Shown here: positions 23,233 through 47,123 of the stretch, one piece after another
How positions within the stretch are numbered: the stretch's first letter is position 1
Layout of the letters: each line of letters starts with the position of its first letter
DNA from: Chryseobacterium sp. G0162
GTDB taxonomy: Bacteria > Bacteroidota > Bacteroidia > Flavobacteriales > Weeksellaceae
Assembly (NCBI RefSeq): GCF_003815715.1
Contig: NZ_CP033922.1
Coordinates: forward strand, 4,884,001 to 4,948,000
Length of the DNA: 64,000 nt
Direction of reading: 5' to 3'
The notes under the pieces: generated by a model
The model's database searches: none
The model's input: the letters and a program-made list of their open reading frames with translations, nothing else
What the model was told of the DNA's origin: nothing
Program-made: the position numbers and the translations under genes

Positions 23233-25389
23233 CTATTTTTTAATGAATTTTTGGGAAGATTTCCCTAAAGAAGTTTCAATATCAATTAGATAAGTTCCGC
23301 CTAGGAAGTGTTTAACATCAACCTTATCCCCAATAACTTTAGCATTCATTTTTCTTCCAGACATGTCGTAAACAGAAATTGATTTAATTTTCCCATTTGT
23401 TTTAATATTCAATACATCAGAAACTGGATTCGGATAAATGGAAGTTTCTGAGTTTGTTGTATCAACGTCTGAAGTGGATAATGATGATAATGGTAATGCA
23501 CAAGGCGTTGTAATACTGCCATTTGGTTGTGTATTATAGGCAAAGTCAGTTACAGAATAACCAGAACCATTGGCTCCAACATTCAGTTTGAAATAGCCGT
23601 TAATATTGTAGCCTTCGAATTGGTTTCTAAAACCAACATAAGCTGTTTGGCCAGACCAAGTAGTGTATGTAGGGGTATATACGTCAAGTTGTCCAGGAGT
23701 ACCCGTTGGATAACCTATATTATTTGCATTACTTATAGTGGTGCAAGACGGAATTAAACTAATATTTCTTGTCCCTACCCCACATACTAATCCTTTCCAA
23801 TAGGTTTCCAATTTTAATTGATTGGCTCCATAGTACCAAGCACCATACCCTGCATCATCACTAAGCTCCGGGTTAATGATAAAATATTTCCAGGGTGCTC
23901 CGGAGTTGGTTGTTACTGTTGTTGGTGTTGGATTGGCATAACTTTCCAGAGGAGTTCCTGTAACTATTTTATAAGGATCTTTGTAAGAAAAAGTTAATGC
24001 CAAAGATGTTGTTGATCCTAATGAAGTTACGCCTCCTGTTATAGCCGGATTTAGAAACGTAATGGATGAATTCAGAACCTGACTTTTAGGATGACTGGTT
24101 GCCGCACCATTTATGGTAAGTGTAGCAGTAGTAGGGCTTGTAACGGCTATAGTTGCTGTTTGTCCTGCTGGTAATGAAGAATTGAAATGTGTTCCTGCAC
24201 TAAGAGTTGTTCCATTCGATACGGCAAATGTTGCTCCGTTTAGCGTAATCGTTGATTTAGGGGCAGATGCTACTGTTCCATCTAATGACACGGCTCCATT
24301 ATTGTTTAAGTTCTCTGTAAAGGTACTGTTGCTAAGAGTTAACTTAGGTGGCGTATTGGCAACTCCGGTTGCTGCTAAGTTAGCAGGCTGCCATAAATTT
24401 ATTCTTGACGGGTGATTTAATGCGGCTAACATTCTGTTAACTTGTCCATTGGTAAACATTTTATAACAACCAGCGGAACCGTTGTATCCCATATAGTTTT
24501 CAACGTTCACTCTTTGTCCAAGACAATTGTTTCCAGTTGTACATCCTAATCCGGAAGAATTATTTTCTACAGGGGTGTCAGCAACTCCGTCACCATCATT
24601 ACTAGGGTTCGCCGTTGAACAAAGAACATTGAACGTGTGTTGAAGATTTAGCCAATGCCCGAATTCGTGAGTGAATGTATCAGAAAACTCGTTTGAAGCC
24701 ACAGTTCCTGCAGCATCATATATATAACGGCCATTATAAACAACTCTTGCTGTATTTACTGAAGACATGTATGAATCCGGATACCAGGCAACTCCTGATT
24801 GATATAAATCTTTATCAGCATATAGATCATTTTGTATATACACATTCATATACTTTGTATTATCCCATGCATCTGCTCCAATTTGTGCATCATATCCGCC
24901 TCCGTTGCCATATCCACTTTTGAAAGGGTGAAATACCACTCCGCTTGTTGCTTTTCCGGTTGGGTCAATTTTAGCTAAGCGGAATTCAATACTTAATGTG
25001 CCCCTAATCGGCTGGAAGTAAGGGTCTATAGTGTTTGAATCGGTATTGATTCCATTGAAATTTAAGTTGATTTGTTGCAGCAGGTCAACTACTTTTTGGT
25101 AATTTACTTTTACATTACTCTGAGATTCTCCATACACATGAAAAACCACAGGGATGATGTAGGTGGGATTGTTGGCCTTTTTATTCAATGGAGTTTTGTT
25201 TGATTCTATTTTTTTTACAAAATCTTTGGTGAATTTTTCAAATTTTTCATATTCAGCCTTAGATTCAGGGTGCCGTTCAAAATGATTTTTCATCATTTCA
25301 TCTGCTTTACACTCATGAGGTCTATTTTCCTGAGCAAAACCTATTATTGGAAATAGGGAAACAAGTAGTAGTAATTTAAATTTTTTCAT
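23233..25389 (-). CDS. Secreted M43 (cytophagalysin-like) zinc metalloprotease with T9SS tail
   Basis: A 718-aa exported protease. Residues 1-19 are the signal peptide (MKKFKLLLLVSLFPIIGFA); a propeptide follows. The zinc site is HEFGHWLNLQH at 241-251 (H241, H245 and H251 as ligands, E242 catalytic), with a Met-turn in VENYMGYNG, matching the M43 family of PAPP-A and cytophagalysin. The middle part (about 345-460) is Ser/Thr-rich and looks like a beta-sandwich (IPT-like). The C-terminal ~75 residues are a type A T9SS domain: SIYPNPVSDVLNIKTNG, SVYDMSGRKM, GGTYLIDIET, SSQKFIKK. Its neighbour is the hydroxyproline operon, so a role in breaking down collagen-like protein is an attractive inference. 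Confidence 0.88.
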   Translation of the reverse strand: MKKFKLLLLVSLFPIIGFAQENRPHECKADEMMKNHFERHPESKAEYEKFEKFTKDFVKKIESNKTPLNKKANNPTYIIPVVFHVYGESQSNVKVNYQKVVDLLQQINLNFNGINTDSNTIDPYFQPIRGTLSIEFRLAKIDPTGKATSGVVFHPFKSGYGNGGGYDAQIGADAWDNTKYMNVYIQNDLYADKDLYQSGVAWYPDSYMSSVNTARVVYNGRYIYDAAGTVASNEFSDTFTHEFGHWLNLQHTFNVLCSTANPSNDGDGVADTPVENNSSGLGCTTGNNCLGQRVNVENYMGYNGSAGCYKMFTNGQVNRMLAALNHPSRINLWQPANLAATGVANTPPKLTLSNSTFTENLNNNGAVSLDGTVASAPKSTITLNGATFAVSNGTTLSAGTHFNSSLPAGQTATIAVTSPTTATLTINGAATSHPKSQVLNSSITFLNPAITGGVTSLGSTTSLALTFSYKDPYKIVTGTPLESYANPTPTTVTTNSGAPWKYFIINPELSDDAGYGAWYYGANQLKLETYWKGLVCGVGTRNISLIPSCTTISNANNIGYPTGTPGQLDVYTPTYTTWSGQTAYVGFRNQFEGYNINGYFKLNVGANGSGYSVTDFAYNTQPNGSITTPCALPLSSLSTSDVDTTNSETSIYPNPVSDVLNIKTNGKIKSISVYDMSGRKMNAKVIGDKVDVKHFLGGTYLIDIETSLGKSSQKFIKK

Positions 25390-25601: not shown

Positions 25602-26867
25602 TTAATTAAATCTTTCAGGGTTGAATATCTTTATCTCAACCGTTGGCTTTTGGTCATTGGCAAGTTCTGAAACTGTTTTTCCAAAAATGGGTCCTAAGCT
25701 TAGTCCCATCATACCGCCGCCGCCTGCGATGATCAAGTTCTTTAATTGGGAAGATTGTCCCAGATATGGAAGTCCATCCGGAGCACAAGGTCTGTAACCA
25801 AACCAGATTTCCGATTCTTTGGGTAATTTAACCTTAAAATCTGGCAAATATTTGGGAATAGATTGTACAATTCCCTCTACCCTCTTCATATTAATTTTAT
25901 TCTGATGGGAAGCCAGCTCCATGGTTCCCCCAAAACGGATTTGTCCATTCATAGGGGTTACCGCTACTCTTGCTTCCAATAATAAAGCGGCATGCTCCAA
26001 TTTATGGATTGGGTTCTCTGGAGTATGCATAAAAGAATAACCTTTCCCTGGCATCAATTGAATTTTAATCCCTGCTTTTTGCGCAAGTTCCGGCAAAAAT
26101 GAACCTCCGGTCATTACAAAACGGTCTGCTGAAAACTTTTTACCATTCGCTATGATTGCATTTATGGTGTTTCCTGTAATTTCATATCCTGTTACTTTAT
26201 GCTGTGTATGAAAAATGACCCCATTGTTTTTAAGATAAGAGATCATTTGCTTCATCAGCTTTACCGGATTCATATGGCCATCACATTTGTAATTGACTCC
26301 CCCAATGACATCCAGTTGAGCATTGGGCTCCAGTTCCTGAATTCCATTTTTATCCAGAATATCAACTGTTAATCCTAAACTGATAGCTTTATGAGCCAGT
26401 TCTGTTTCCTCTTCTGCTACTTTTTCCGTTTTATAGAGCATCAGAATTCCGTTTTGATTCAGTTCAAAATCGAATTCAGGTTTTTGGGTAATTTCATTGT
26501 AAAGACTGCTGCTTGCCAGATTAAGATCCCTGATGGCTGTTGCTGAATAGTCTACATGGTTCTGATTGGAATGTTTCAGAAATTTTAATCCCCATGATAA
26601 CAATTGTGTACTGAGCGAGGGTTTCACATAAAACGGACTTTTACTATCAAACATCCATCGAATGCCCTGTGCCAAAACTCCGGGAGCTGCCAATGGAGTA
26701 AAATGGCTGGGTACAATCATTCCTGCATTGCCGTAAGAACAATTGTTGGTAAGATCATTCTGTTCAAGGATTTCTACCTGCCAGCCTTTTTGTAAAAGAT
26801 AATATGCTGAACTGAGTCCTGCTATTCCTGCACCGATAATAAGTGCTTTACCTTTATTTTGTGTCAT
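25602..26867 (-). CDS. FAD-dependent D-amino-acid (D-hydroxyproline) dehydrogenase
   Basis: Glycine/D-amino-acid oxidase family flavoprotein, here expected to oxidise cis-4-hydroxy-D-proline to pyrroline-4-hydroxy-2-carboxylate. The 421-aa protein opens with the dinucleotide fold ALIIGAGIAGLSSAYYLLQK. Near the end it has FGYRPCAPDGLPYLGQSS and LIIAGGGGMMGLSLGPIFG, the DadA-type FAD C-terminal signature. The frame is open to 26906, but that would overlap the upstream epimerase gene; the ATG at 26867 (MTQNKGKALIIGAGIAG) lies 14 bp after the epimerase stop and is the better start. It is the last gene of the hydroxyproline operon. Substrate is inferred from its neighbours. Confidence 0.87.
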   Translation of the reverse strand: MTQNKGKALIIGAGIAGLSSAYYLLQKGWQVEILEQNDLTNNCSYGNAGMIVPSHFTPLAAPGVLAQGIRWMFDSKSPFYVKPSLSTQLLSWGLKFLKHSNQNHVDYSATAIRDLNLASSSLYNEITQKPEFDFELNQNGILMLYKTEKVAEEETELAHKAISLGLTVDILDKNGIQELEPNAQLDVIGGVNYKCDGHMNPVKLMKQMISYLKNNGVIFHTQHKVTGYEITGNTINAIIANGKKFSADRFVMTGGSFLPELAQKAGIKIQLMPGKGYSFMHTPENPIHKLEHAALLLEARVAVTPMNGQIRFGGTMELASHQNKINMKRVEGIVQSIPKYLPDFKVKLPKESEIWFGYRPCAPDGLPYLGQSSQLKNLIIAGGGGMMGLSLGPIFGKTVSELANDQKPTVEIKIFNPERFN

Positions 26868-26881
26868 ACTTTTTACAAACT

Positions 26882-27880
26882 TTACATTACCTGAAAGCCC
26901 TGCCAATAAGGATCTTCATCATCAATAATAATCTGGTTATAGCCGGTAATTCTTGCCCAGCCTTCTACTGAAGGGACAATAGCCGGTTTGCCATCAACGG
27001 TAGCGGTGCCTTCAATTCTTCCAATAAATTGGGAACCGATATAGCTTTCATGGATAAACTTTTCCCCTTCTTTTAGCTTATCTTTAGCATACCATTGAGC
27101 CATTCTTGCTGATGTTCCTGTTCCACATGGAGAGCGGTCTAAGGCATTTTCCCCTACTAATACGGCATTTCGCCCACTGGCTTTGGGATCTGTAGGGTTT
27201 CCCGTCCATTGAATATGGCTTAATCCGGAAATGTGTTCATTTTCAGGATGGATAAACTCATATTTTTCATTAAGCAGCCTTCTTATAATTTTTCCATAAT
27301 GGATAAGCTGACTTGCCATAAAATCTGAAATATCTCTGAAATTCTCCTGGGGATCAATAATAGCGTAAAAGTTTCCGCCATAAGCGACATCGGCTTTTAT
27401 GTGACCTAGATCGGGACATTCTACTTCAAGATTTTCAGCATAGAGAAAAGATTTTACATTGGTTAGTTTTACTGATTTTACTTTTTTTCCTTCCTGTATA
27501 TAATCTATAAGAATAAGCCCAGCTGGGGTTTCTAAACGTAATTTTCCCGGAATTTTAGGAACGACTAAACCTTCTTCTATAGCAATGGTAACGGTTCCGA
27601 TGGTTCCATGTCCGCACATCGGTAAGCAGCCACTGGTTTCAATGTATAAAACTCCAATATCATTTTCTTCATCAACGGGAGGATAAAGAATACTTCCACT
27701 CATCATATCATGGCCGCGAGGTTCAAACATTAACCCTTTTCGAATCCAGTCATATTCTTTCATGAAGTGAAGCCTGCGCTCCATCATGGAGTTTCCTTTT
27801 AAAATCGGTCCACCTCCTGCTACTAGACGTACGGGACAGCCACAGGTATGGGAATCTATACAAAAAAATGTTCTGTTCAT
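26882..27880 (-). CDS. 4-hydroxyproline 2-epimerase
   Basis: Proline-racemase superfamily enzyme converting trans-4-hydroxy-L-proline to cis-4-hydroxy-D-proline. The 332-aa protein has both catalytic cysteines, C89 in LPMCGHGTIG and C252 in RSPCGTGTSARMA, which separates it from the Ser/Thr-containing hydroxyproline dehydratases of the family. It also has FCIDSHTCGCPVRLV at the N-terminus. Its start overlaps the stop of the dehydrogenase gene by 4 bp (ATGA type), so it is in a tight operon with the other three pathway genes. Proline racemase is the alternative, but the gene context argues for hydroxyproline. Confidence 0.92.
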   Translation of the reverse strand: MNRTFFCIDSHTCGCPVRLVAGGGPILKGNSMMERRLHFMKEYDWIRKGLMFEPRGHDMMSGSILYPPVDEENDIGVLYIETSGCLPMCGHGTIGTVTIAIEEGLVVPKIPGKLRLETPAGLILIDYIQEGKKVKSVKLTNVKSFLYAENLEVECPDLGHIKADVAYGGNFYAIIDPQENFRDISDFMASQLIHYGKIIRRLLNEKYEFIHPENEHISGLSHIQWTGNPTDPKASGRNAVLVGENALDRSPCGTGTSARMAQWYAKDKLKEGEKFIHESYIGSQFIGRIEGTATVDGKPAIVPSVEGWARITGYNQIIIDDEDPYWQGFQVM

Positions 27881-29361
27881 ACGGTTTCTAATTTTAATGA
27901 TCCTGAGTGAATTTCTCCATCCACCATTCTGCTAATCTGTAATGGATTTTCGTTCTTCAGTTCGTCGGGTAAAAATTCATCCGGCCAATTTTGGAAAGAA
28001 ATGGGGCGAACGAATCGTTTAACGGCATCCGGGCCTACTGAAGTAAAACGGGAATCTGTGGTAGATGGGAATGGCCCTCCGTGCTGCATCGCATAAACAA
28101 CTTCTACTCCAGTCGGCATTCCGTTGAACAGTAGCCTTCCACATTTATCTTTCAAAAGATGAATCAGTTCCGCATTTTCATGGATATCATCTGAAGTAGC
28201 TGCTACAGTAATGGTTAGCTGTCCTTTTAGTTTTTTAGCGATCTGTATAAGCTCTTCTTTGTTTTCACAAGTGACGATGATACCAAATGGGCCGAAAACT
28301 TCTTCATTCAATGCAGGATTATCGAGAAATTTCTGAGCATTGGTTTTAATAATGGCAGCACTTCCTTTTCCTTCTTCTGTTTCTATGGATGTAATGACTT
28401 CAATATCAGGTTGCGCTATTGCATTTCCTTTATGATGTTCAAAGTTTTCATATATTCCTTTATGAAGCATATTGGCAGGTGCAATACCTGTAATTTCATG
28501 TTTAACCGTAGAGACAAACCGGTCCAGAGATTCTCCTTTGACAGCAATAAACACTCCCGGATTGGTGCAGAATTGCCCTACACCTAATGTTAGTGAGCTG
28601 ATATATTCTTTAGCTAATGCTTCTGCTTTATTTTCAATCAAGTTTTTAAATGCAAATACCGGGTTGATACTTCCCATTTCAGCAAATACGGGAATAGGAT
28701 TTTCACGACGATTGGCGATATCAAACAGTGCTTTTCCGCCATTGAATGAACCGGTAAATGCTACTGCCTGAATATTCTGATGCTGTGTTAAATAAGTTCC
28801 GATTTCATAGGAAGTTCCTGTAATATGGCTGAAGATACCTTCAGGCCAACCAAATTCTTTTACAGTATTTACTATTGCATCAGCCATGATTTGAGAGGTC
28901 TTAGGATGTGCCGGATGAGCTTTTACAATCACAGGACATCCTGCTCCTATGGCACTTGCAGTATCACCGCCTGCCGTGGAAAAAGCAAACGGAAAATTGC
29001 TGGCTCCAAAGACCACTACAGGCCCTAATCCTATATTATACTTTCTGAGATCTCCTTTCTGTTTTTCAGCTTGGGCAAGATCAATTCTGGGTTCAGTGTA
29101 TATTCCGGAGGCTACTGCTTTGGCGTAACTTCTCCATTGTCCTACGGTTCTGGCTTTTTCACCCTTAAGTCTTGCCAGAGGTAATGAAGTTTCAGTATGT
29201 GCAGTGGCTAAAAGTTCTTCTCCTAAAGTTTCAATTTGATCGGCAACGGCATTCATAAATGCTGCCCGTTCTTTTATCGTTGTATTCTTCAGGAATTGAT
29301 AAGCTTCAGAAGCCATCTGAATGCTCAGATCAATATTTTCTTTTGATGTTTCTTCAATCAT
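27877..29361 (-). CDS. 2,5-dioxovalerate (alpha-ketoglutaric semialdehyde) dehydrogenase
   Basis: NAD(P)-dependent aldehyde dehydrogenase making 2-oxoglutarate in the last step of hydroxyproline breakdown. The 494-aa protein has the subgroup-typical GASNFPFAFSTAGGDTASAI at about 119 and CPVIVKAHPAHPKTS, the catalytic Glu in FAEMGSINPVF (E228), and the catalytic Cys in GVGQFCTNPGVF (C265). The NAD loop FTGSFNGGKAL is at about 202. It starts 16 bp after the deaminase-like gene and overlaps the epimerase gene by 4 bp. The same enzyme type also serves D-arabinose and glucarate pathways, but the neighbours settle the role. Confidence 0.92.
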   Translation of the reverse strand: MIEETSKENIDLSIQMASEAYQFLKNTTIKERAAFMNAVADQIETLGEELLATAHTETSLPLARLKGEKARTVGQWRSYAKAVASGIYTEPRIDLAQAEKQKGDLRKYNIGLGPVVVFGASNFPFAFSTAGGDTASAIGAGCPVIVKAHPAHPKTSQIMADAIVNTVKEFGWPEGIFSHITGTSYEIGTYLTQHQNIQAVAFTGSFNGGKALFDIANRRENPIPVFAEMGSINPVFAFKNLIENKAEALAKEYISSLTLGVGQFCTNPGVFIAVKGESLDRFVSTVKHEITGIAPANMLHKGIYENFEHHKGNAIAQPDIEVITSIETEEGKGSAAIIKTNAQKFLDNPALNEEVFGPFGIIVTCENKEELIQIAKKLKGQLTITVAATSDDIHENAELIHLLKDKCGRLLFNGMPTGVEVVYAMQHGGPFPSTTDSRFTSVGPDAVKRFVRPISFQNWPDEFLPDELKNENPLQISRMVDGEIHSGSLKLETV

Positions 29362-29377: not shown

Positions 29378-30283
29378 TTAGTCTAATGTCGGGCGGTTAG
29401 CTCTACCTTCTTCGATGATCTTATTGACTTTTTCAGCTTCTTCACCCTGAAGTTCAAGACGGGGTGCTCTTACGTATGGATTGCTGATTCCTTCGGCAGT
29501 AGCAGCCAGTTTAATATATTGGATCAGCTTAGGATGAATATCCAGTTCTAGCAATGGCATAAACCATCTGTAAATAGCCACTGCTTTATCATATTCTCCT
29601 GCTTTGGCGTAGTTGTACATAGCCATTGTTTCGTTGGGAAAAGCATCTACTAACCCTGCAACAAGTCCGTCAGCACCAAGCATTAATGTTTCAAGGCAAA
29701 TAGTATCTACACCACCAAGAATTTTAATCCTTTTTCCAAAACGATTGATCATTCTGGTTACATTAGCCAGATCTCTGGTAGATTCTTTCACTGCCTGAAT
29801 GGTTGGATATTCAATAAGCTCATCAAACATTTCTAAGGTGACATAAATACCGTAATCAACAGGATTATTATAAATAAGAATAGGAAGATCTGTAGCACTA
29901 GCCACTGCTTTGAAATATTCTACCACTTCACGGCTGTCTGCTTTGTAACGCATTGGAGGGAGAAGCATTAATCCATCCGCTCCCAGTTCTTTTGCTTTTT
30001 GGGCAAAGCCTACTGCATTTTTGGTTGTATTTTCAGAAAGGTTAAGAATAACGGGAATTCTGCCTTGTGTCATTTTTTTAGCATATTGGAGAAGTTCAAA
30101 CTTTTCTTCGGTTTCCAAGACACTGGCTTCTCCTAATGTTCCGGCAAGGATAATTCCATGAACTCCGGCTTTAATCTGGGCTTCTGTATTGACTGCAAAC
30201 ATTTCAAAATCAATCTTTCCTTCTTTTGTAAAAGGAGTTAATACAGCAGGATAAATCCCTTCCCAGTTTAGTTTTGTACTCAT
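29378..30283 (-). CDS. DHDPS-family 1-pyrroline-4-hydroxy-2-carboxylate deaminase
   Basis: Aldolase-fold enzyme expected to deaminate pyrroline-4-hydroxy-2-carboxylate to 2-oxoglutarate semialdehyde. The 301-aa chain has the DapA/NAL layout: GIILAGTLGEASVLETEEK (substrate loop) at about 43, the tyrosine in ILIYNNPVDYG at about 138, and the Schiff-base lysine K166 in AVKESTRD. It is the first gene of the hydroxyproline operon, about 11 nt behind a predicted transcription start. The family also contains dihydrodipicolinate synthases and sugar-acid aldolases; I choose the deaminase because epimerase, D-amino-acid dehydrogenase and dioxovalerate dehydrogenase genes follow. Confidence 0.87.
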   Translation of the reverse strand: MSTKLNWEGIYPAVLTPFTKEGKIDFEMFAVNTEAQIKAGVHGIILAGTLGEASVLETEEKFELLQYAKKMTQGRIPVILNLSENTTKNAVGFAQKAKELGADGLMLLPPMRYKADSREVVEYFKAVASATDLPILIYNNPVDYGIYVTLEMFDELIEYPTIQAVKESTRDLANVTRMINRFGKRIKILGGVDTICLETLMLGADGLVAGLVDAFPNETMAMYNYAKAGEYDKAVAIYRWFMPLLELDIHPKLIQYIKLAATAEGISNPYVRAPRLELQGEEAEKVNKIIEEGRANRPTLD

Positions 30284-30300
30284 ATCAAATAATATTTATT

Positions 30301-30308
30301 CAAAACTA
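30301..30308 (-). promoter_or_regulatory. Promoter -7 element of the hydroxyproline operon
   Basis: On the minus strand TAGTTTTG fits TAnnTTTG. No TTG is found at the -33 position; that region is occupied by the two-armed site at 30328-30367, whose near end is 19 bp away. This is the layout of a promoter that needs an activator. Confidence 0.6.
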
Positions 30309-30327
30309 AGTGAATTTTAAAACGGTA

Positions 30328-30367
30328 AATGTTAATATTTTAATGTATTCTAACCGTATTTTAACAT
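30328..30367 (-). promoter_or_regulatory. Probable AraC-type operator O1 (hydroxyproline operon)
   Basis: Read on the minus strand: ATGTTAAAATA, 15 nt, then AAAATATTAACATT. The AAAATA halves repeat in direct orientation 21 bp apart (two helical turns), and the outer ATGTT/AACAT ends are inverted. The same site, in the opposite genomic orientation, occurs at 31291-31330. It begins 5 bp past the araC stop and ends 19 bp before the promoter -7 element of the operon. Confidence 0.65.
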
Positions 30368-30371
30368 GTGC

Positions 30372-31256
30372 TTATTCGTGGTCTGTAGTAGCCTCTTTAT
30401 AATGCTTCAGATATTCTTTTGGGGAGTACTTCATGATGGATTTAAATACCCGGTTGAAGTTGGTAAGACTGGTGAATCCGCTGTTAAAAGCAACGGAAGA
30501 AATGTTATACATGCTGCTGGAGGTTAATAATCTGCAGGCTCTCTGCACTCGTAATTCATTAAGATATTGAATATAGGTAATTCTGGTACGTTTTTTAAAA
30601 GATCTGCAAAATGCCTGTGGAGTCATACAAGCTTCTTTCGCAATCAGATCAAGGGTGAGTTTATGCTGGGTGAAATTTTTCTTAATATAATTCTGAGCAT
30701 CTATAATTCGCTGGTCATTATCCGAAATATGATTAGGCAGGTTCTTTTCTGAGGATAAAGGAATATGTAAATGCCTGTTCTGCATCAGGTGGTTTAAGAT
30801 CTTTATAAAATCGATGATCTGTTCTATGCCTTGCGTTTTTTGTAAAGCTGCCATGCTTTCACCCACACTCAATTTTAGCTTTGAAGCAATCTGAAATCCT
30901 GTTTTTGAATGTTCAATAAAATTTTTAAGCTCTTCAAATTCAGGAAGATCAAAAAAAGCTGCTATTTTTTTATCAGGATCAAAGAATATAGAAATGGCAT
31001 GAACCTTTTGTTTTTCGTTTTCATTAAAAGCTCCTTTAAAAACATGTGACTGGTTGGCTCCCAGATAGAAAATATCTCCGGATTCAAAGGTAAAAAGGTT
31101 TTGTTCTATCGCCAAAGTACCATGCCCTTTAAGAATCCACATGATTTGAGTTTCCGTGTGTCTATGAAAATAGGGATAGAAATTAGGCATAATATCTTCC
31201 TGAATACGGATGCTTTTATTGGTGTCGGCAGGAACTGAAAACTGGAGGCTCTTCAT
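30372..31256 (-). CDS. AraC-family transcriptional regulator
   Basis: A 294-aa regulator: N-terminal cupin-like sensing domain (about 1-130; FYPYFHRHTETQIMWILKG, FESGDIFYLGANQSHVF) and a C-terminal double helix-turn-helix domain (about 185-285). The latter has LDLIAKEACMTPQAFCRSFK (first helix-turn-helix), ACRLLTSSSMYNISSVAFNS and GFTSLTNFNRVFKSIMKYSP (second, with the family signature). It lies between the hydroxyproline operon and the divergent peptidase genes, with a shared 40-bp site on each side of it, so it most likely senses a proline/hydroxyproline-related ligand and switches on both. The upstream copy is 34 bp before its start, so self-control is also possible. Confidence 0.92.
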   Translation of the reverse strand: MKSLQFSVPADTNKSIRIQEDIMPNFYPYFHRHTETQIMWILKGHGTLAIEQNLFTFESGDIFYLGANQSHVFKGAFNENEKQKVHAISIFFDPDKKIAAFFDLPEFEELKNFIEHSKTGFQIASKLKLSVGESMAALQKTQGIEQIIDFIKILNHLMQNRHLHIPLSSEKNLPNHISDNDQRIIDAQNYIKKNFTQHKLTLDLIAKEACMTPQAFCRSFKKRTRITYIQYLNELRVQRACRLLTSSSMYNISSVAFNSGFTSLTNFNRVFKSIMKYSPKEYLKHYKEATTDHE

Positions 31257-31290
31257 ATAATCAATATTTTAAAGGGATCAATGATTAGGA

Positions 31291-31330
31291 ATGTTAAAAT
31301 ATTGCCGAATGTAAGCAAAATATGAACATT
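31291..31330 (+). promoter_or_regulatory. Probable AraC-type operator O2 (peptidase genes and araC)
   Basis: ATGTTAAAATA, 15 nt, then AAAATATGAACATT: 24 of 25 arm positions equal O1, with identical spacing, while only 3 of the 15 centre bases agree. It points toward pepP in the same way as O1 points toward the hydroxyproline operon. Confidence 0.65.
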
Positions 31331-31349
31331 AAATATCAAATTAAAATCC

Positions 31350-31413
31350 AAACTTTACATACTTATTATTTTAATGAATAAAGGGTTGTAAATAGTACAA
31401 AATCGTAACTTTA
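31350..31413 (+). promoter_or_regulatory. Candidate promoters for the X-Pro peptidase genes
   Basis: AAACTTTA (31350-31357) lies exactly 19 bp after O2, the same distance as the -7 element of the hydroxyproline operon from O1, but matches TAnnTTTG at only part of the positions. A second candidate is TAACTTTA (31406-31413) with TTG at 31386-31388, 17 bp upstream, closer to the gene start. Which is used cannot be told by eye. Confidence 0.4.
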
Positions 31414-31443: not shown

Positions 31444-32838
31444 ATGTTTTCATCAAAGACTTATCAAGACAGAAGAGCCGTATTACAGAACAATGTGGCG
31501 AGTGGAATTCTATTGTTTCTAGGAAATATAGAAAATCCTGTTAATTTTGAACATAATCCTTATTACTTCCGTCAGGACAGTACTTTTCTGTATTATTTCG
31601 GAATTCAGGAACCAAAGATTGCGGCTATTATTGATATTGATGAAAATAAGACCATTGTTTTTGGAGATGAGTTGAGTATTGATGACATCGTATGGATGGG
31701 CAGACAAGAAACGTTGAAAGAGAAAAGTCAAAAATCGGGGGTGCGGGAAACTTTACCATATGCAGAACTTTCTCAATATCTTTTAAAAGCACAATCATCA
31801 GGCAGAAAAGTACACTACCTTCCACCCTATCAATCTTCCAATAAAATTTTATTGACTGATCTTTTAGGAGTTAAAATAGCAGAATTGCAGCCTTCTGTGG
31901 AGATGATTAAATCTGTTGTAAAACAACGTTCTATAAAAGAAGCTCAGGAAATTGTACAAATAGAAGAAGCTGTAAATGTATCTAATGAAATGCATTTACT
32001 GGCGATGAGAATGGCAAAACCAGGGATTAAAGAATATGAAATAGCCAATGCGATTCAATACCTTGCTGCTAATAAAGAATGCCAGATGTCTTATCCACCG
32101 ATCGTTACTATAAACGGAGGAATATTACATAATCATTACCGTCTTAATACGTTGAAGGAAGGAGACCTTTTCCTTAATGATTCAGGTGCAGAAACGGCAA
32201 TGGGATATGCAGGAGACTTGACCAGAACATTTCCGGTAAGCAAAACCTTTAGCACAAAACAAAAAGAGATCTATGAGATTGTGCTGAATTCATTCAATAA
32301 TGCTCATCATCTTTTGAAGCCTGGAGTTAAATTTAAAGATATTTATCTGAAAGCTTCTGAATATCTGGTAGAAGGACTTGTTGATCTGGGATTGATGAAA
32401 GGAAATCCTGAAGAGGCCGTAAAAAACAATGCTCATACTCTGTTTTTCCAATGTGGACTGGGACATATGATGGGATTGGATGTACATGATATGGAGGATC
32501 TTGGAGAACAGTATATTGGATATACCGAAGAAGAGCCAAAAGACACTAAAACATTTGGACTTAAATCTTTACGTTTAGGAAAAGCTTTAGAATCCGGATA
32601 TGTAGTAACCGTAGAACCTGGTATTTATATGATTCCTGAGCTTATTGATATCTGGCAGGCTGAAAATAAAAATGCAGAATACATTAATTATGATAAAGTA
32701 AATGAATACCGAAACTTCGGCGGAGTACGTGTAGAAGATGATTTCCTGATTACTGATGATGGTTATAAACTTCTAGGAAACGGACTGATTACTACTGTTG
32801 ATGAAATTGAAAACTACAGAGCAGAACATTTAGCTTAA
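31444..32838 (+). CDS. pepP: Xaa-Pro aminopeptidase (M24B)
   Basis: Removes the N-terminal residue from peptides whose second residue is proline. The 464-aa protein has an N-terminal creatinase-like domain (about 1-165) and a C-terminal pita-bread metalloprotease domain with the two-metal ligands in order: LNDSGAETAMGYAGDLTRTF (two Asp), GLGHMMGLDVHD (His), VTVEPGIYMIPE (Glu) and GVRVEDDFLIT (Glu). It starts 187 bp from araC on the other strand and is followed 14 bp later by a DPP-IV gene, so the two peptidases form one transcript. Products are free amino acids, X-Pro dipeptides and Pro/Hyp, which the neighbouring operon could use. Confidence 0.92.
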   Translation: MFSSKTYQDRRAVLQNNVASGILLFLGNIENPVNFEHNPYYFRQDSTFLYYFGIQEPKIAAIIDIDENKTIVFGDELSIDDIVWMGRQETLKEKSQKSGVRETLPYAELSQYLLKAQSSGRKVHYLPPYQSSNKILLTDLLGVKIAELQPSVEMIKSVVKQRSIKEAQEIVQIEEAVNVSNEMHLLAMRMAKPGIKEYEIANAIQYLAANKECQMSYPPIVTINGGILHNHYRLNTLKEGDLFLNDSGAETAMGYAGDLTRTFPVSKTFSTKQKEIYEIVLNSFNNAHHLLKPGVKFKDIYLKASEYLVEGLVDLGLMKGNPEEAVKNNAHTLFFQCGLGHMMGLDVHDMEDLGEQYIGYTEEEPKDTKTFGLKSLRLGKALESGYVVTVEPGIYMIPELIDIWQAENKNAEYINYDKVNEYRNFGGVRVEDDFLITDDGYKLLGNGLITTVDEIENYRAEHLA

Positions 32839-32852
32839 TTCGGATTCAATAT

Positions 32853-35024
32853 ATGAAGAATATAAAAAAAATAACGGCTATTGCTTTATACTTCCTGTGT
32901 CTGTCACCATTGGCTGCACAAAAGACGCAATGGACTCCTGATGGCAATGCTTATTATTCATTCACTAAAAATGGCGTTGGGATTATTGATGTACTGAATC
33001 CTGGAAAGGATCAGTCTTTTTTAAGTAATAATGAATTAATTCCTTCCGGAAGTGCTACCGCTTTAGAAGTACAGAGCTTTCAGGTATCACCGGATGGCAA
33101 AAGCTTATTGCTTTTTACCAATACCCAGAAAGTTTGGCGGGATAATACGCGTGGAGATTACTGGATCTTTGATAAAAATACTAAGAAGCTCACTCAGCTT
33201 GGGAAAGATCTGCCCACATCATCATTAATGTTTGCCAAGTTCTCTCCTGATGGTAAAAAGGTGGCTTATGTATCTAAACACAACATTTACATTGAAGACC
33301 TTTCCAATAATCAGCTTACTAAAATTACGAATGATGGTACAGACAGAATGATTAACGGTACTTTCGATTGGGCTTATGAAGAGGAATTTGGGACTCAGGA
33401 TGGCTTCAGATGGTCTCCTGACGGAAGCAAAATTGCTTACTGGAAGCTGGATGCACGAGGGACAAAGAACTTCCTGATGATTAATAATACAGACAGTCTG
33501 TATTCATTTACTGTTCCTGTAGAATATCCGAAAGTAGGTGAAAATCCTTCAGGATGCAGCATCTGGTTCTATGATCTTGCCTCAAAATCTTCGAAGAAAG
33601 CAAACATTGAAGGCGACGAAGTACAACATTATATTCCCAGAATGGAATGGGTGCTGGATTCTAAATCTATTATTCTACAGCAACTGAACAGAAAACAGAA
33701 TCAGAGTAAAATTATGGTAGCAGATGCTCAGTCCGGAAGCAGTAAAACCATTTATACAGAAACAGATAATGCATGGATTGATATAAAATCCCGCTGGAAT
33801 GAGAACGACCCAAGTGGCTGGGATTGGATTAACAATGGTAAAGAATTTCTGTGGCTTTCTGAAAAAGACGGATGGAGACATATTTATAAGATAGATATGA
33901 ACGGTAAAGAAACGTTGATTACAAAAGATGCTTTTGATGTGATAAAGCCTGAGTTTTTTGATGTTCAGAACAAGCTGATTTACTTTTTGGCTTCCCCTGA
34001 TAATGCTACTCAGAAATATTTGTATAAAGTAAGTATGCAAGGCGGAAAAGCCAGCAAGATAACTCCTGAAGCGTACACCGGATCAAATCAATATACCATA
34101 TCTCCCAACGGAAAAATTGCTATGTTTAACAATAGCAGCGTAAACTCGCGTTCAGCAGGTGCTGTGGTATCATTGCCGCAACATAAAGAGCTTGTAGCTG
34201 CTAAGAGTATTTTAAAAGCAGATCCGGCAAGATCTAAAGCTGAGTTTTTCCAGATAACAACCCAAGACGGAGCTACATTAGACGGATGGGTAGTAAAGCC
34301 TAAAGATTTTGATCCTAATAAAAAATATCCGATTGTTTTCATGGTTTACGGAGAACCGGGATCACAAACGGTAACAGACAGTTTCTACGCAGGAAAGAAT
34401 GGTTTGTATACAGGAGATATGGCTCAGGACGGCTATCTTTATGTTTCTCTTGAAAACCGTGGAACTCCTGCTCCTAAAGGACGTGAATGGAGAAAATCGA
34501 TTTACCGTAAAATTGGACAGCTTAATATCCGTGATCAGGCTATGGGAGCCAAAGCATTGTTTGCAAAATGGCCTTATGTGGATACTTCAAGAGTGGCTGT
34601 TTGGGGCTGGAGCGGTGGTGGTTCTTCCACTCTAAACCTGTTAGGGCAATATCCTGATATTTACCAGACCGGAATTGCCATTGCTCCGGTAGCCAACCAA
34701 TTATTCTATGATAATATCTATCAGGAACGTTATATGGGCCTTCCACAGGAAAACCGAGAAGATTTTGTAAATGGATCTCCATTAGCGTATGCCAAGAATC
34801 TCAAAGGAAATCTTTTATTGGTTCACGGAACAGGCGATGACAATGTACATTATCAAAATACAGAAGTTTATATTAATGAATTGGTAAAGTATAACAAGCA
34901 GTTTCAGCTGATGTCTTATCCTAACAGAACCCACTCTATCAGTGAAGGTGAAGGAACATCATTGCACCTGGCTACGATGTTTACCAAATACTTAAAAGAA
35001 CATTGTCCTCCGGGAGGAAGATAA
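32853..35024 (+). CDS. Dipeptidyl peptidase IV (S9B)
   Basis: Releases X-Pro or X-Ala dipeptides from peptide N-termini. The 723-aa protein has a signal peptide (MKNIKKITAIALYFLCLSPL, cleaved near AAQ), an N-terminal beta-propeller (DPPIV_N; WAYEEEFGTQDGFRWSPDGS holds the Glu pair that grips the substrate N-terminus) and a C-terminal hydrolase domain with the triad Ser in WGWSGGGSS (about 587), Asp in HGTGDDNVH (about 662) and His in YPNRTHSISEG (about 694). It is probably periplasmic or surface-exposed. It is co-transcribed with pepP, and a good terminator follows. Confidence 0.93.
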   Translation: MKNIKKITAIALYFLCLSPLAAQKTQWTPDGNAYYSFTKNGVGIIDVLNPGKDQSFLSNNELIPSGSATALEVQSFQVSPDGKSLLLFTNTQKVWRDNTRGDYWIFDKNTKKLTQLGKDLPTSSLMFAKFSPDGKKVAYVSKHNIYIEDLSNNQLTKITNDGTDRMINGTFDWAYEEEFGTQDGFRWSPDGSKIAYWKLDARGTKNFLMINNTDSLYSFTVPVEYPKVGENPSGCSIWFYDLASKSSKKANIEGDEVQHYIPRMEWVLDSKSIILQQLNRKQNQSKIMVADAQSGSSKTIYTETDNAWIDIKSRWNENDPSGWDWINNGKEFLWLSEKDGWRHIYKIDMNGKETLITKDAFDVIKPEFFDVQNKLIYFLASPDNATQKYLYKVSMQGGKASKITPEAYTGSNQYTISPNGKIAMFNNSSVNSRSAGAVVSLPQHKELVAAKSILKADPARSKAEFFQITTQDGATLDGWVVKPKDFDPNKKYPIVFMVYGEPGSQTVTDSFYAGKNGLYTGDMAQDGYLYVSLENRGTPAPKGREWRKSIYRKIGQLNIRDQAMGAKALFAKWPYVDTSRVAVWGWSGGGSSTLNLLGQYPDIYQTGIAIAPVANQLFYDNIYQERYMGLPQENREDFVNGSPLAYAKNLKGNLLLVHGTGDDNVHYQNTEVYINELVKYNKQFQLMSYPNRTHSISEGEGTSLHLATMFTKYLKEHCPPGGR

Positions 35025-45515: not shown

Positions 45516-47123
45516 TTATTCTATAATGAATTTTTTAGTTAGTTTTTGTGTCCCATTTGGGAGAGTCAAAAAGTAAACCCCTTTTTCAAGATGACTTGTA
45601 TTGATCTTTGTTCTTAATCCTTCTAATTTCTGTTGATGAACAGTTTTTCCTAACATATCTGTAATGGTAACTTCCATAGATGGTGTGAAATAATCAAGTT
45701 TTAATGTAATATGATCTTTTGCAGGATTAGGAAAAACATTTATCGTAGCTGTGACATCTTTCACAACCTCGCTAGTAGCCAATTGAATTTCCGGAGCAAG
45801 TTTTACAACCCAAACATCATCATTTCCGTTATTTACTGTTACATCGCCATTGTTTGAATTAGAGCCTCCGGCAATTATATATCCACCGTCTGTAGTTTGA
45901 ATGACAGAATTCGCACTATCAACTCCCGATCCTCCAAAGCATTTTTGCCATTGAATATTTCCTGTAGGAGTAAGTTTTACAGCCCAATAATCATAAGAAA
46001 GAGGTATTTCTCCGGTACCTGATCCTGAAGGGGGATGATATCCTGTTACCTGACCATCATTTGAAGCGGTGCTTCCCACAACCAAATACCCACCATCAGT
46101 GGCTTGAATAATAGAAGAAGCCAAGTCAGCTTTGCTTCCACCCAAAGCTTTTTGCCATTGGATGTTTCCTGTTGCATCTATTTTTACAACCCAGTAATCA
46201 GTTCCGTCATGATTTTCCGTTACATCTCCATCATTAGAAAAAGCATGACCTGCTACAATAAAACCTCCATCTGAAGTTTTTACAATAGATGTTGCTAAAT
46301 CCTGATGGGAACCACCTAAAGATTTTTTCCAATAAATCACTCCGCCATCAGAATTCAATTTTATGATCCAGTAATCTTTCCCTCCATGGTTTCCTGTTAC
46401 ATCACCATTGTTGTTTTCGGCATATCCGGCAACTACATACCCACCGTCTGTAGTTTGAACAACGGAAGTAGCTCTGTCATCTCCTGTTCCTCCTAAAGAT
46501 TTTTTCCATTGGACATTTCCATCAGAATTTATTTTTACGATCCAATAGTCTATATACCCATTATTTCCGGGTACATCACCATTATTATTTGAAGAAGAGC
46601 TTCCCACAAATAGATATCCACCATCTGTTGTTGAGATCATTTTACTGATAGCATCATAATTGGTTCCTCCAAAAGCTTTTTTCCAATAAATAACTCCGGC
46701 ATCAGAATTTAATTTTAAAGCCCATCCATCTGTAAATCCATGATTTCCTGTTATATCACCATTGTTTGATTCGGAAGTTCCGGCAACCACATATCCGCCA
46801 TCTGCCGTTTGAATGATAGAGCTTGCATAGTCGTTTCCTGTTCCTCCCAAAGATTTTTGCCATTGAAGAGTTCCTGTTGCATTTAATTTTATGAGCCAGT
46901 AATCTGAATTTCCGTGATTCCCGGTTACATTACCATTATTGGAAGCAGAAGTTGCGGAAATCATATACCCCCCATCTGCTGTTTGAATGATAGAGCTTGC
47001 ATAGTCACTTCCTGTTCCTCCTAAAGATTTTTGCCACTCTATAGCTGGAGCCTGTGCCATACTAAAGCCTGAGAAAAAGAGCCCAGCCAATACAGGCAGC
47101 GTTTTTTTGTAATTGAATTTCAT
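45516..47123 (-). CDS. T9SS-sorted protein with seven propeller-like repeats
   Basis: A 535-aa exported protein: signal peptide MKFNYKKTLPVLAGLFFSGF with cleavage near MAQA. Seven repeats of about 62 aa follow, each beginning with W(Q/K)K(S/A/C)(L/F)GG and holding an ADGGY(V/M/I) core and a DYW(L/I/V)(I/V)K(L/I) end. This is the layout of a seven-bladed propeller. The C-terminus is a type A T9SS domain (INVFPNPAKDHITLKLDYF, EVTITDMLGKTVHQ, GVYFLTLPNG, LTKKFIIE). It is related in design to the first gene of the Rhs operon. Single-gene transcript; function unknown. Confidence 0.85.
   Translation of the reverse strand: MKFNYKKTLPVLAGLFFSGFSMAQAPAIEWQKSLGGTGSDYASSIIQTADGGYMISATSASNNGNVTGNHGNSDYWLIKLNATGTLQWQKSLGGTGNDYASSIIQTADGGYVVAGTSESNNGDITGNHGFTDGWALKLNSDAGVIYWKKAFGGTNYDAISKMISTTDGGYLFVGSSSSNNNGDVPGNNGYIDYWIVKINSDGNVQWKKSLGGTGDDRATSVVQTTDGGYVVAGYAENNNGDVTGNHGGKDYWIIKLNSDGGVIYWKKSLGGSHQDLATSIVKTSDGGFIVAGHAFSNDGDVTENHDGTDYWVVKIDATGNIQWQKALGGSKADLASSIIQATDGGYLVVGSTASNDGQVTGYHPPSGSGTGEIPLSYDYWAVKLTPTGNIQWQKCFGGSGVDSANSVIQTTDGGYIIAGGSNSNNGDVTVNNGNDDVWVVKLAPEIQLATSEVVKDVTATINVFPNPAKDHITLKLDYFTPSMEVTITDMLGKTVHQQKLEGLRTKINTSHLEKGVYFLTLPNGTQKLTKKFIIE

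Follow-up and report, generated by a model that had tools for sequence, protein, structure and literature searches.

Predicted direct-repeat operators on both sides of an araC-family gene probably link hydroxyproline breakdown and X-Pro peptidases in Chryseobacterium

Hydroxyproline is a mark of collagen in animals and of extensins in plants. At the araBAD promoter of Escherichia coli, the direct-repeat half-sites of AraC (araI1-araI2) lie 21 bp apart, and the inner half-site extends into the -35 region. For hydroxyproline genes themselves, PMC6608401 describes LhpR of Pseudomonas aeruginosa as an AraC-family protein that, once it has bound L-Hyp, activates the lhp genes (with reference to Li et al. 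2016), and HypR of Streptomyces coelicolor as a GntR-type protein whose regulon includes the putative collagenase SCO5912.

Here, we analyzed a stretch of 64,000 nucleotides from Chryseobacterium sp. G0162 (the window), in which a gene for an AraC-family protein (araC) lies between a predicted hydroxyproline operon and a pair of peptidase genes, with one predicted operator on either side (O1 and O2; Table 1). The window's AraC resembles LhpR, by description only, in being an AraC-family protein predicted to control hydroxyproline genes; it differs in phylum and promoter type, and a peptidase operator is not mentioned for LhpR in the account given by PMC6608401. With HypR, it would share the coupling of hydroxyproline catabolism with proteolysis through one regulator, but HypR is described as a GntR repressor with another motif, whereas the window has an AraC-type protein, direct-repeat operators, and exopeptidases. 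The geometry is like that of E. coli AraC at araBAD (21-bp direct-repeat half-sites, the inner one at the -35 region), although the phylum is another one, the promoters are of the -33/-7 type, and the half-site sequence is different. AraC control of hydroxyproline genes and a link between a regulator and proteolysis are thus already precedented (LhpR; HypR with its collagenase), and it is the make-up of the regulon that we did not meet: among the open-access titles and abstract openings listed, we found no published operator or regulon of this make-up for this bacterial group. With these sites, hydroxyproline control in such bacteria gains a defined operator that can be tested, and the operator predicts peptidase, uptake, and glycosidase genes that are possibly under a shared switch. 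Since hydroxyproline marks collagen and extensins, the regulon, if true, would show how these bacteria recognize and use either.

Table 1. Genes, predicted operators, and promoter boxes in the window
Feature	Position	Strand	Description
M43 metallopeptidase, T9SS sorting tail	23233..25389	-	adjoins hydroxyproline operon
FAD-dependent D-amino-acid oxidase/dehydrogenase family	25602..26906	-	proposed D-hydroxyproline oxidase
4-Hydroxyproline epimerase	26882..27880	-	NF010578, 574.7 bits, cut-off 376
Aldehyde dehydrogenase	27877..29361	-	proposed 2-oxoglutarate semialdehyde dehydrogenase
DHDPS-family protein	29378..30283	-	proposed pyrroline-4-hydroxy-2-carboxylate deaminase
-7 box TAGTTTTG of hydroxyproline operon	30301..30308	-	19 bp past O1; unchanged across all 31 distinct O1 sequences; read from 30308 to 30301
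O1 operator (predicted)	30328..30367	-	half-sites TGTTAAAATA + CATTAAAATA, 21-bp spacing, towards hydroxyproline operon; reads ATGTTAAAATA-N15-AAAATATTAACATT from 30367 to 30328
araC-family regulator, 294 aa	30372..31256	-	N-terminal cupin-like domain + C-terminal double HTH (HTH_18)
O2 operator (predicted)	31291..31330	+	half-sites TGTTAAAATA + AGCAAAATA, 21-bp spacing, towards X-Pro aminopeptidase/DPP-IV unit; reads ATGTTAAAATA-N15-AAAATATGAACATT
Weak -7-like box AAACTTTA (P1)	31350..31357	+	19 bp past O2
P2 box TAACTTTA	31406..31413	+	probable basal promoter of X-Pro aminopeptidase; alignments read by eye
Xaa-Pro aminopeptidase	31444..32838	+	AMP_N + Peptidase_M24
Dipeptidyl peptidase IV type S9 peptidase	32853..35024	+	starts 14 bp past aminopeptidase gene

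The four genes of the hydroxyproline operon encode proteins with Pro_racemase, DAO, DHDPS, and Aldedh domains, which together represent the four pathway steps (the activities are predicted). The NCBIfam equivalog cut-off was passed by the epimerase only and reached for none of the other three enzymes; members of the DHDPS, Aldedh, and DAO families presumably fit the deaminase, dehydrogenase, and oxidase steps by which hydroxyproline is degraded in the epimerase route. Cysteines C89 and C252 of the epimerase, which we take to be the catalytic ones, sit in the motifs MCGHGT and PCGTGT. The AraC protein, the proposed regulator of both units, belongs to its family by the C-terminal HTH_18 domain (PF12833, E 3.3e-20, 72.6 bits, cut-off 33.6), and its N-terminal ligand-binding domain is marginal, with Cupin_2 at the cut-off (27.2 bits) and AraC_binding just above it (21.5 versus 21.1). 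No second match of the kind of the Xaa-Pro aminopeptidase was found in the genome at E<=1e-5.

The sequence-only reading had described a site of two arms around a variable center, present on both sides of araC. By direct count in the window, O1 and O2 indeed agree at 24 of 25 arm bases and only 3 of 15 center bases; across the window and 33 related loci, the agreement is 21 to 24 of 25 and 3 to 8 of 15, respectively. The arm agreement stands, but a pair of direct half-sites describes the repeat unit better than arms around a center do. The two AAAATA blocks of each site have a spacing of 21 bp, as had been noted and as would fit AraC-family geometry, and this spacing recurs in all 31 distinct O1 and 33 distinct O2 sequences, in the manner of direct repeats. 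Invariant in, and common to, both sets are columns 3 to 11 (GTTAAAATA), 24 (A), 27 to 33 (AAAATAT), 35 to 38 (AACA), and 40 (T). O1 starts 4 bp past the araC stop codon. Partial dyad symmetry is present in both sites. An inverted repeat was rejected as the main unit: in O2, 21 of the 33 distinct sequences have G instead of T at column 2, yet the dyad partner of this column, column 38, is A throughout, and outside the family the sites have the form of direct repeats. The symmetry could still have some role.

A promoter-like element 19 bases beyond each site had also been reported, and both elements are there, the one at O2 being weak. The -7 box consensus is given as TAnnTTTG or TAHHTTTG and is taken here as -12 to -5 (PMC9723704, PMC6847099). 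P1 matches only 4 of the 6 letters of TAnnTTTG in the window; in the 33 distinct O2 sequences, the A and TTT letters are invariant and occupy the same columns as at O1. The box at O1 carries a G at -10, which is unusual against the Flavobacterium johnsoniae consensus, as G at this position is called "virtually absent" among the promoters of that species (PMC6847099). If the box is set at -12 to -5, the predicted register places O1 and O2 each at -71 to -32, a class II position, and both window sites have ACAT, not TTTG, at -36 to -33. Such a promoter, lacking TTTG there, is what would be required by an activator taking the place of the -33 contact. The reverse strand of 31315-31322, within O2, reads TATTTTGC and fits TAnnTTGY, the box of another promoter class (PMC9723704); it is possibly linked to araC's own promoter.

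We estimate at roughly 0.83 the probability that O1 and O2 are direct-repeat, class-II-like operators of the AraC protein encoded between them, which probably activates both units. An AraC dimer would bind the two half-sites, which share the core AAAATA and form a direct repeat with 21-bp spacing. As the promoters keep a -7 box, lack TTTG at -36 to -33, and have the site at -71 to -32, the bound AraC probably substitutes for the -33 contact and thereby activates transcription in a class-II-type manner. The four-gene hydroxyproline operon would be driven from O1, and O2 would drive P1 as an added promoter of the aminopeptidase/DPP-IV pair, on top of the basal P2. Induction would presumably be by hydroxyproline or one of its derivatives. 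The sequences, their geometry, conservation, co-occurrence, and natural losses are observed, and AraC as the binder, activation, and the ligand are inferred.

To cover close relatives, 33 araC loci were taken from the GTDB collection (30 from Chryseobacterium and 3 from Elizabethkingia; AraC 75 to 96% identical). Both sites are conserved in all 33, with <=3 mismatches. The four hydroxyproline genes were matched in 33 of 33 loci (some matches partial), the aminopeptidase in 32 (in the remaining one, L010, the contig ends), and the DPP-IV in 31. Among 148 genomes of the genus (that of the window included), which overlap with the 33 loci and are related, so that the counts are not independent, 41 have an araC orthologue (39 whole at >=71% identity and 2 with interrupted frames). 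The pair of O1 and O2 was present in 40 of these 41 and in none of the 107 others (counted from listings), and the epimerase was found in the same 41 genomes plus G021 and G141, both with a divergent version. The araC reading frame is interrupted in some assemblies (G037, G062, G305, L033, and L034). Both sites are still present in the four of these that were checked (all except G305); L033 and L034 misalign in the O1 panel, and their sites were nevertheless counted in the conservation, alignment, and matrix-rank tallies.

Natural losses were followed in 29 of the 107 genus genomes without an orthologue and in G064, the one genus genome with an araC orthologue that has O1 only. In G064, where araC and the hydroxyproline operon are kept, O1 is present at a distance of 19 bp from TAGTTTTG, and no aminopeptidase match and no O2 were found. 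Four of the 29 genomes (G009, G015, G033, and G035) have the aminopeptidase (86 to 90% identity) without an araC orthologue, and in these four no O2-like site (<=7 mismatches) was found within 1 kb upstream of the gene; the P2 box TAACTTTA is retained in three of the four (by eye). O2 was therefore seen only where araC and the aminopeptidase are neighbors. The earlier proposal that hydroxyproline breakdown and X-Pro peptidases form one regulon is hence supported, as a prediction from comparative genomics, by araC co-occurrence, natural losses, and shared geometry.

It would be possible, though we hold it unlikely, that O2 mainly autoregulates araC and that the X-Pro peptidases are bystanders under P2. 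O2 ends only 34 bp from the araC start codon, which lies on its other side, and P2 occurs without araC; yet all 34 sequences maintain the -7 register facing the peptidase, and G064 retains araC while lacking both O2 and the peptidase. A divergent version of the locus in L112 to L115 (AraC 35 to 37% and X-Pro aminopeptidase 59% identical) bears on the same question. The aminopeptidase gene of L112 and L113 is followed, on the same strand, by the hydroxyproline genes, and in L114 and L115 only the aminopeptidase and araC were found. By eye, all four have a tandem site upstream of the divergent araC that points away from it, with no gene diverging there, as autoregulation would have it; profile R1 (see below) detects this site in L112 and L113 only. 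The best matrix match of L114 (14.2) is upstream of the divergent X-Pro aminopeptidase, yet oriented away from it. Outside the family, however, peptidase genes are found within the hydroxyproline locus or behind second operators, which argues against a role in autoregulation alone. O2 may autoregulate araC in addition to serving the peptidase unit.

Occurrence of the site at many unrelated genes, which would have told against the regulon, was not seen in genome searches with the site pattern (<=3 mismatches) and with a profile (150 of 15,106 first-look candidates scored). The pattern (5,276,141 bases, <=3 mismatches) matched O1 and O2 solely, and the reversed-pattern control gave 0 matches. 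A pattern with one extra leading A, which matches O2 only, gave 0 matches in 100 shuffles. Profile R1, built from 28 of 41 distinct sites with the window's two included, scored O2 at 44.7 bits and O1 at 39.9; the next match had 16.1 bits (E 0.07), and no further site clearly above chance was found among the 150 of 15,106 first-look candidates scored. Genus-wide, the pattern gave 18 extra matches, each at 3 mismatches, and the reversed-pattern control gave more, 32 (count from listings).

Of 395 genomes of the order, 53 have the epimerase at E<=1e-120, and 41 of these 53 lie outside the genus; 40 of the 41 loci were fetched in two batches (G631 was left out). By family, 38 belong to f3, presumably Flavobacteriaceae, one to f4, and one to f7. 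An AraC relative 28 to 39% identical to the window's is encoded in 34 of the 40 loci, divergently from the deaminase gene in 32, and the mean identity over the 34 is 40.2% in the HTH part and 28.8% in the rest. A tandem repeat (approximately GGRTAATATA, with a partner 21 bp on) was first noticed in the first batch. With a loose pattern, 10 of 13 loci of the first batch and 16 of 19 of the second (26/32) have the tandem at a spacing of exactly 21 bp, compared to at most 3 and 4, respectively, at that offset in 200 shuffled sets; a stricter pattern gave 8/13 and 9/19 (17/32), with at most 2 and 3 in the shuffles. Of the loci with the tandem, 10 of 12 in the first batch and 13 of 18 in the second (23/30) have TAnnTTTG (>=5/6 letters) at offset 58. 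The boxes of O1 and O2 are at the same offset, 58, in 34 of 34 sequences at a lower bar (>=4/6 letters), at which other offsets fit too (64 in 25/34 O2 and 68 in 29/34 O1 sequences). Hydroxyproline operons outside the family share this predicted operator-promoter geometry with O1 and O2. In L154, araC and the deaminase gene share one strand, as in the window, and the best-scoring site is between them.

The two groups of sites were also compared by a 68-column matrix trained on 29 sites outside the family, with the window sequence excluded and L189 left out of the training (wrong tandem picked). In the window, the matrix ranked O1 first and O2 19th of 127,866 positions (first and 14th of the 22,314 low-GC positions); dinucleotide shuffles scored as well as the site itself in 0 (O1) and 6 (O2) of 20,000 cases. 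In another scan of the window by the fixed-length matrix, the second-ranked match was one of 8.8 at 45682 on the plus strand. Within each of the 33 araC loci, O1 ranked 1 to 3 and O2 1 to 4 of some 25,600 positions, with smaller totals for L010 and L012, and across these loci 1 of 832,610 background positions reaches 12. Leave-one-locus-out matrices, with near relatives kept, gave the operon site the first rank in all 29 training loci, and in five further loci (L152, L154, L161, L168, and L189) the top site of the matrix was immediately upstream of the deaminase gene. By our own counts, a site scoring >=12 is present in 34 of the 40 loci outside the family and a second such site in 14. Model R2 (18 of 30 order-level sites), which was run on the genome and 11 sources, gave 35 matches on the genome, O1 and O2 not among them (150 of 6,948 candidates scored), and likewise missed both in the window.

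That O1 and O2 are operators of some regulator other than the AraC protein between them is, in our judgment, quite improbable. AT-rich sites are bound by many regulators, and L161 and L168 have a strong site in hydroxyproline loci without an AraC match; the link of site to AraC outside the family is not strict, a site of >=12 being present in 32 of the 34 loci that have AraC and in 2 of the 6 that lack it (own count). Against such a regulator, no further copies were found in the genome by the pattern search or by the profile with its 150 of 15,106 candidates scored, the site pair co-occurs with this araC, and the same tandem geometry is found beside AraCs that are only 28 to 39% identical. Direct repeats of 21 bp are typical of AraC. 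Our confidence in the AraC-operator reading is slightly reduced by the looser bar for the O2 box and by the two loci with AraC and without a site. It is scarcely credible that O1 and O2 are merely AT-rich stretches that persist by chance or because divergence is short, or that they form a terminator or another RNA element, even with intergenic DNA being AT-rich and O1 directly behind the araC stop codon, given half-site columns that are invariant while the flank of O2 on the araC side varies across the 33 distinct sequences, the shuffle and low-GC controls of the matrix, and the same design outside the family.

If O1 and O2 are AraC operators, as we prefer, further genes might respond with them. 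The M43 metallopeptidase gene comes after the hydroxyproline operon in 27 of the 33 araC loci, relatives 48 to 50% identical are present at 3 of the 40 hydroxyproline loci outside the family, and no operator before the window's M43 gene was found among the eight best matrix matches of the window; it is a possible further member of the regulon. DPP-IV relatives (48 to 55%) or X-Pro aminopeptidases (26 to 29%) occur in 12 of the 40 loci outside the family. Genes behind second operators were named by Pfam (applied to 14 proteins of the loci) or else by similar protein starts or tblastn. By Pfam, the second site of L171 precedes a DPP-IV type S9 peptidase and then a GH127 beta-L-arabinofuranosidase, those of L155 and L178 precede SusC/SusD, that of L187 an M43 metallopeptidase with a T9SS tail, and a weaker site in L183 (9.8) an M1 peptidase and then a DPP-IV; L181 has an M43 relative (tblastn).

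We give about even odds to a broader picture, in which the AraC protein would belong to a family of hydroxyproline regulators that spans several families of the order and switches on the whole route of hydroxyproline-rich protein use, by a single operator-promoter design (half-site, 21 bp, half-site, and a -7 box at a fixed offset). The route would comprise a secreted M43 protease, SusC/D uptake, X-Pro, DPP-IV, and M1 peptidases, in some loci GH127, and hydroxyproline catabolism. GH127 enzymes have been linked, in the accounts of PMC10850190 and PMC7263609, to beta-L-arabinosides of plant hydroxyproline-rich glycoproteins. This link and the position of GH127 beside an S9 peptidase make plant extensin a possible substrate besides collagen, so that the substrate may be either, and GH127 in some loci would point to extensins rather than collagen. 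The GH127 gene beside the S9 peptidase was seen at L171:31-3075 (Pfam on L171 only), and similar protein starts are found in L174, L184, and L188.
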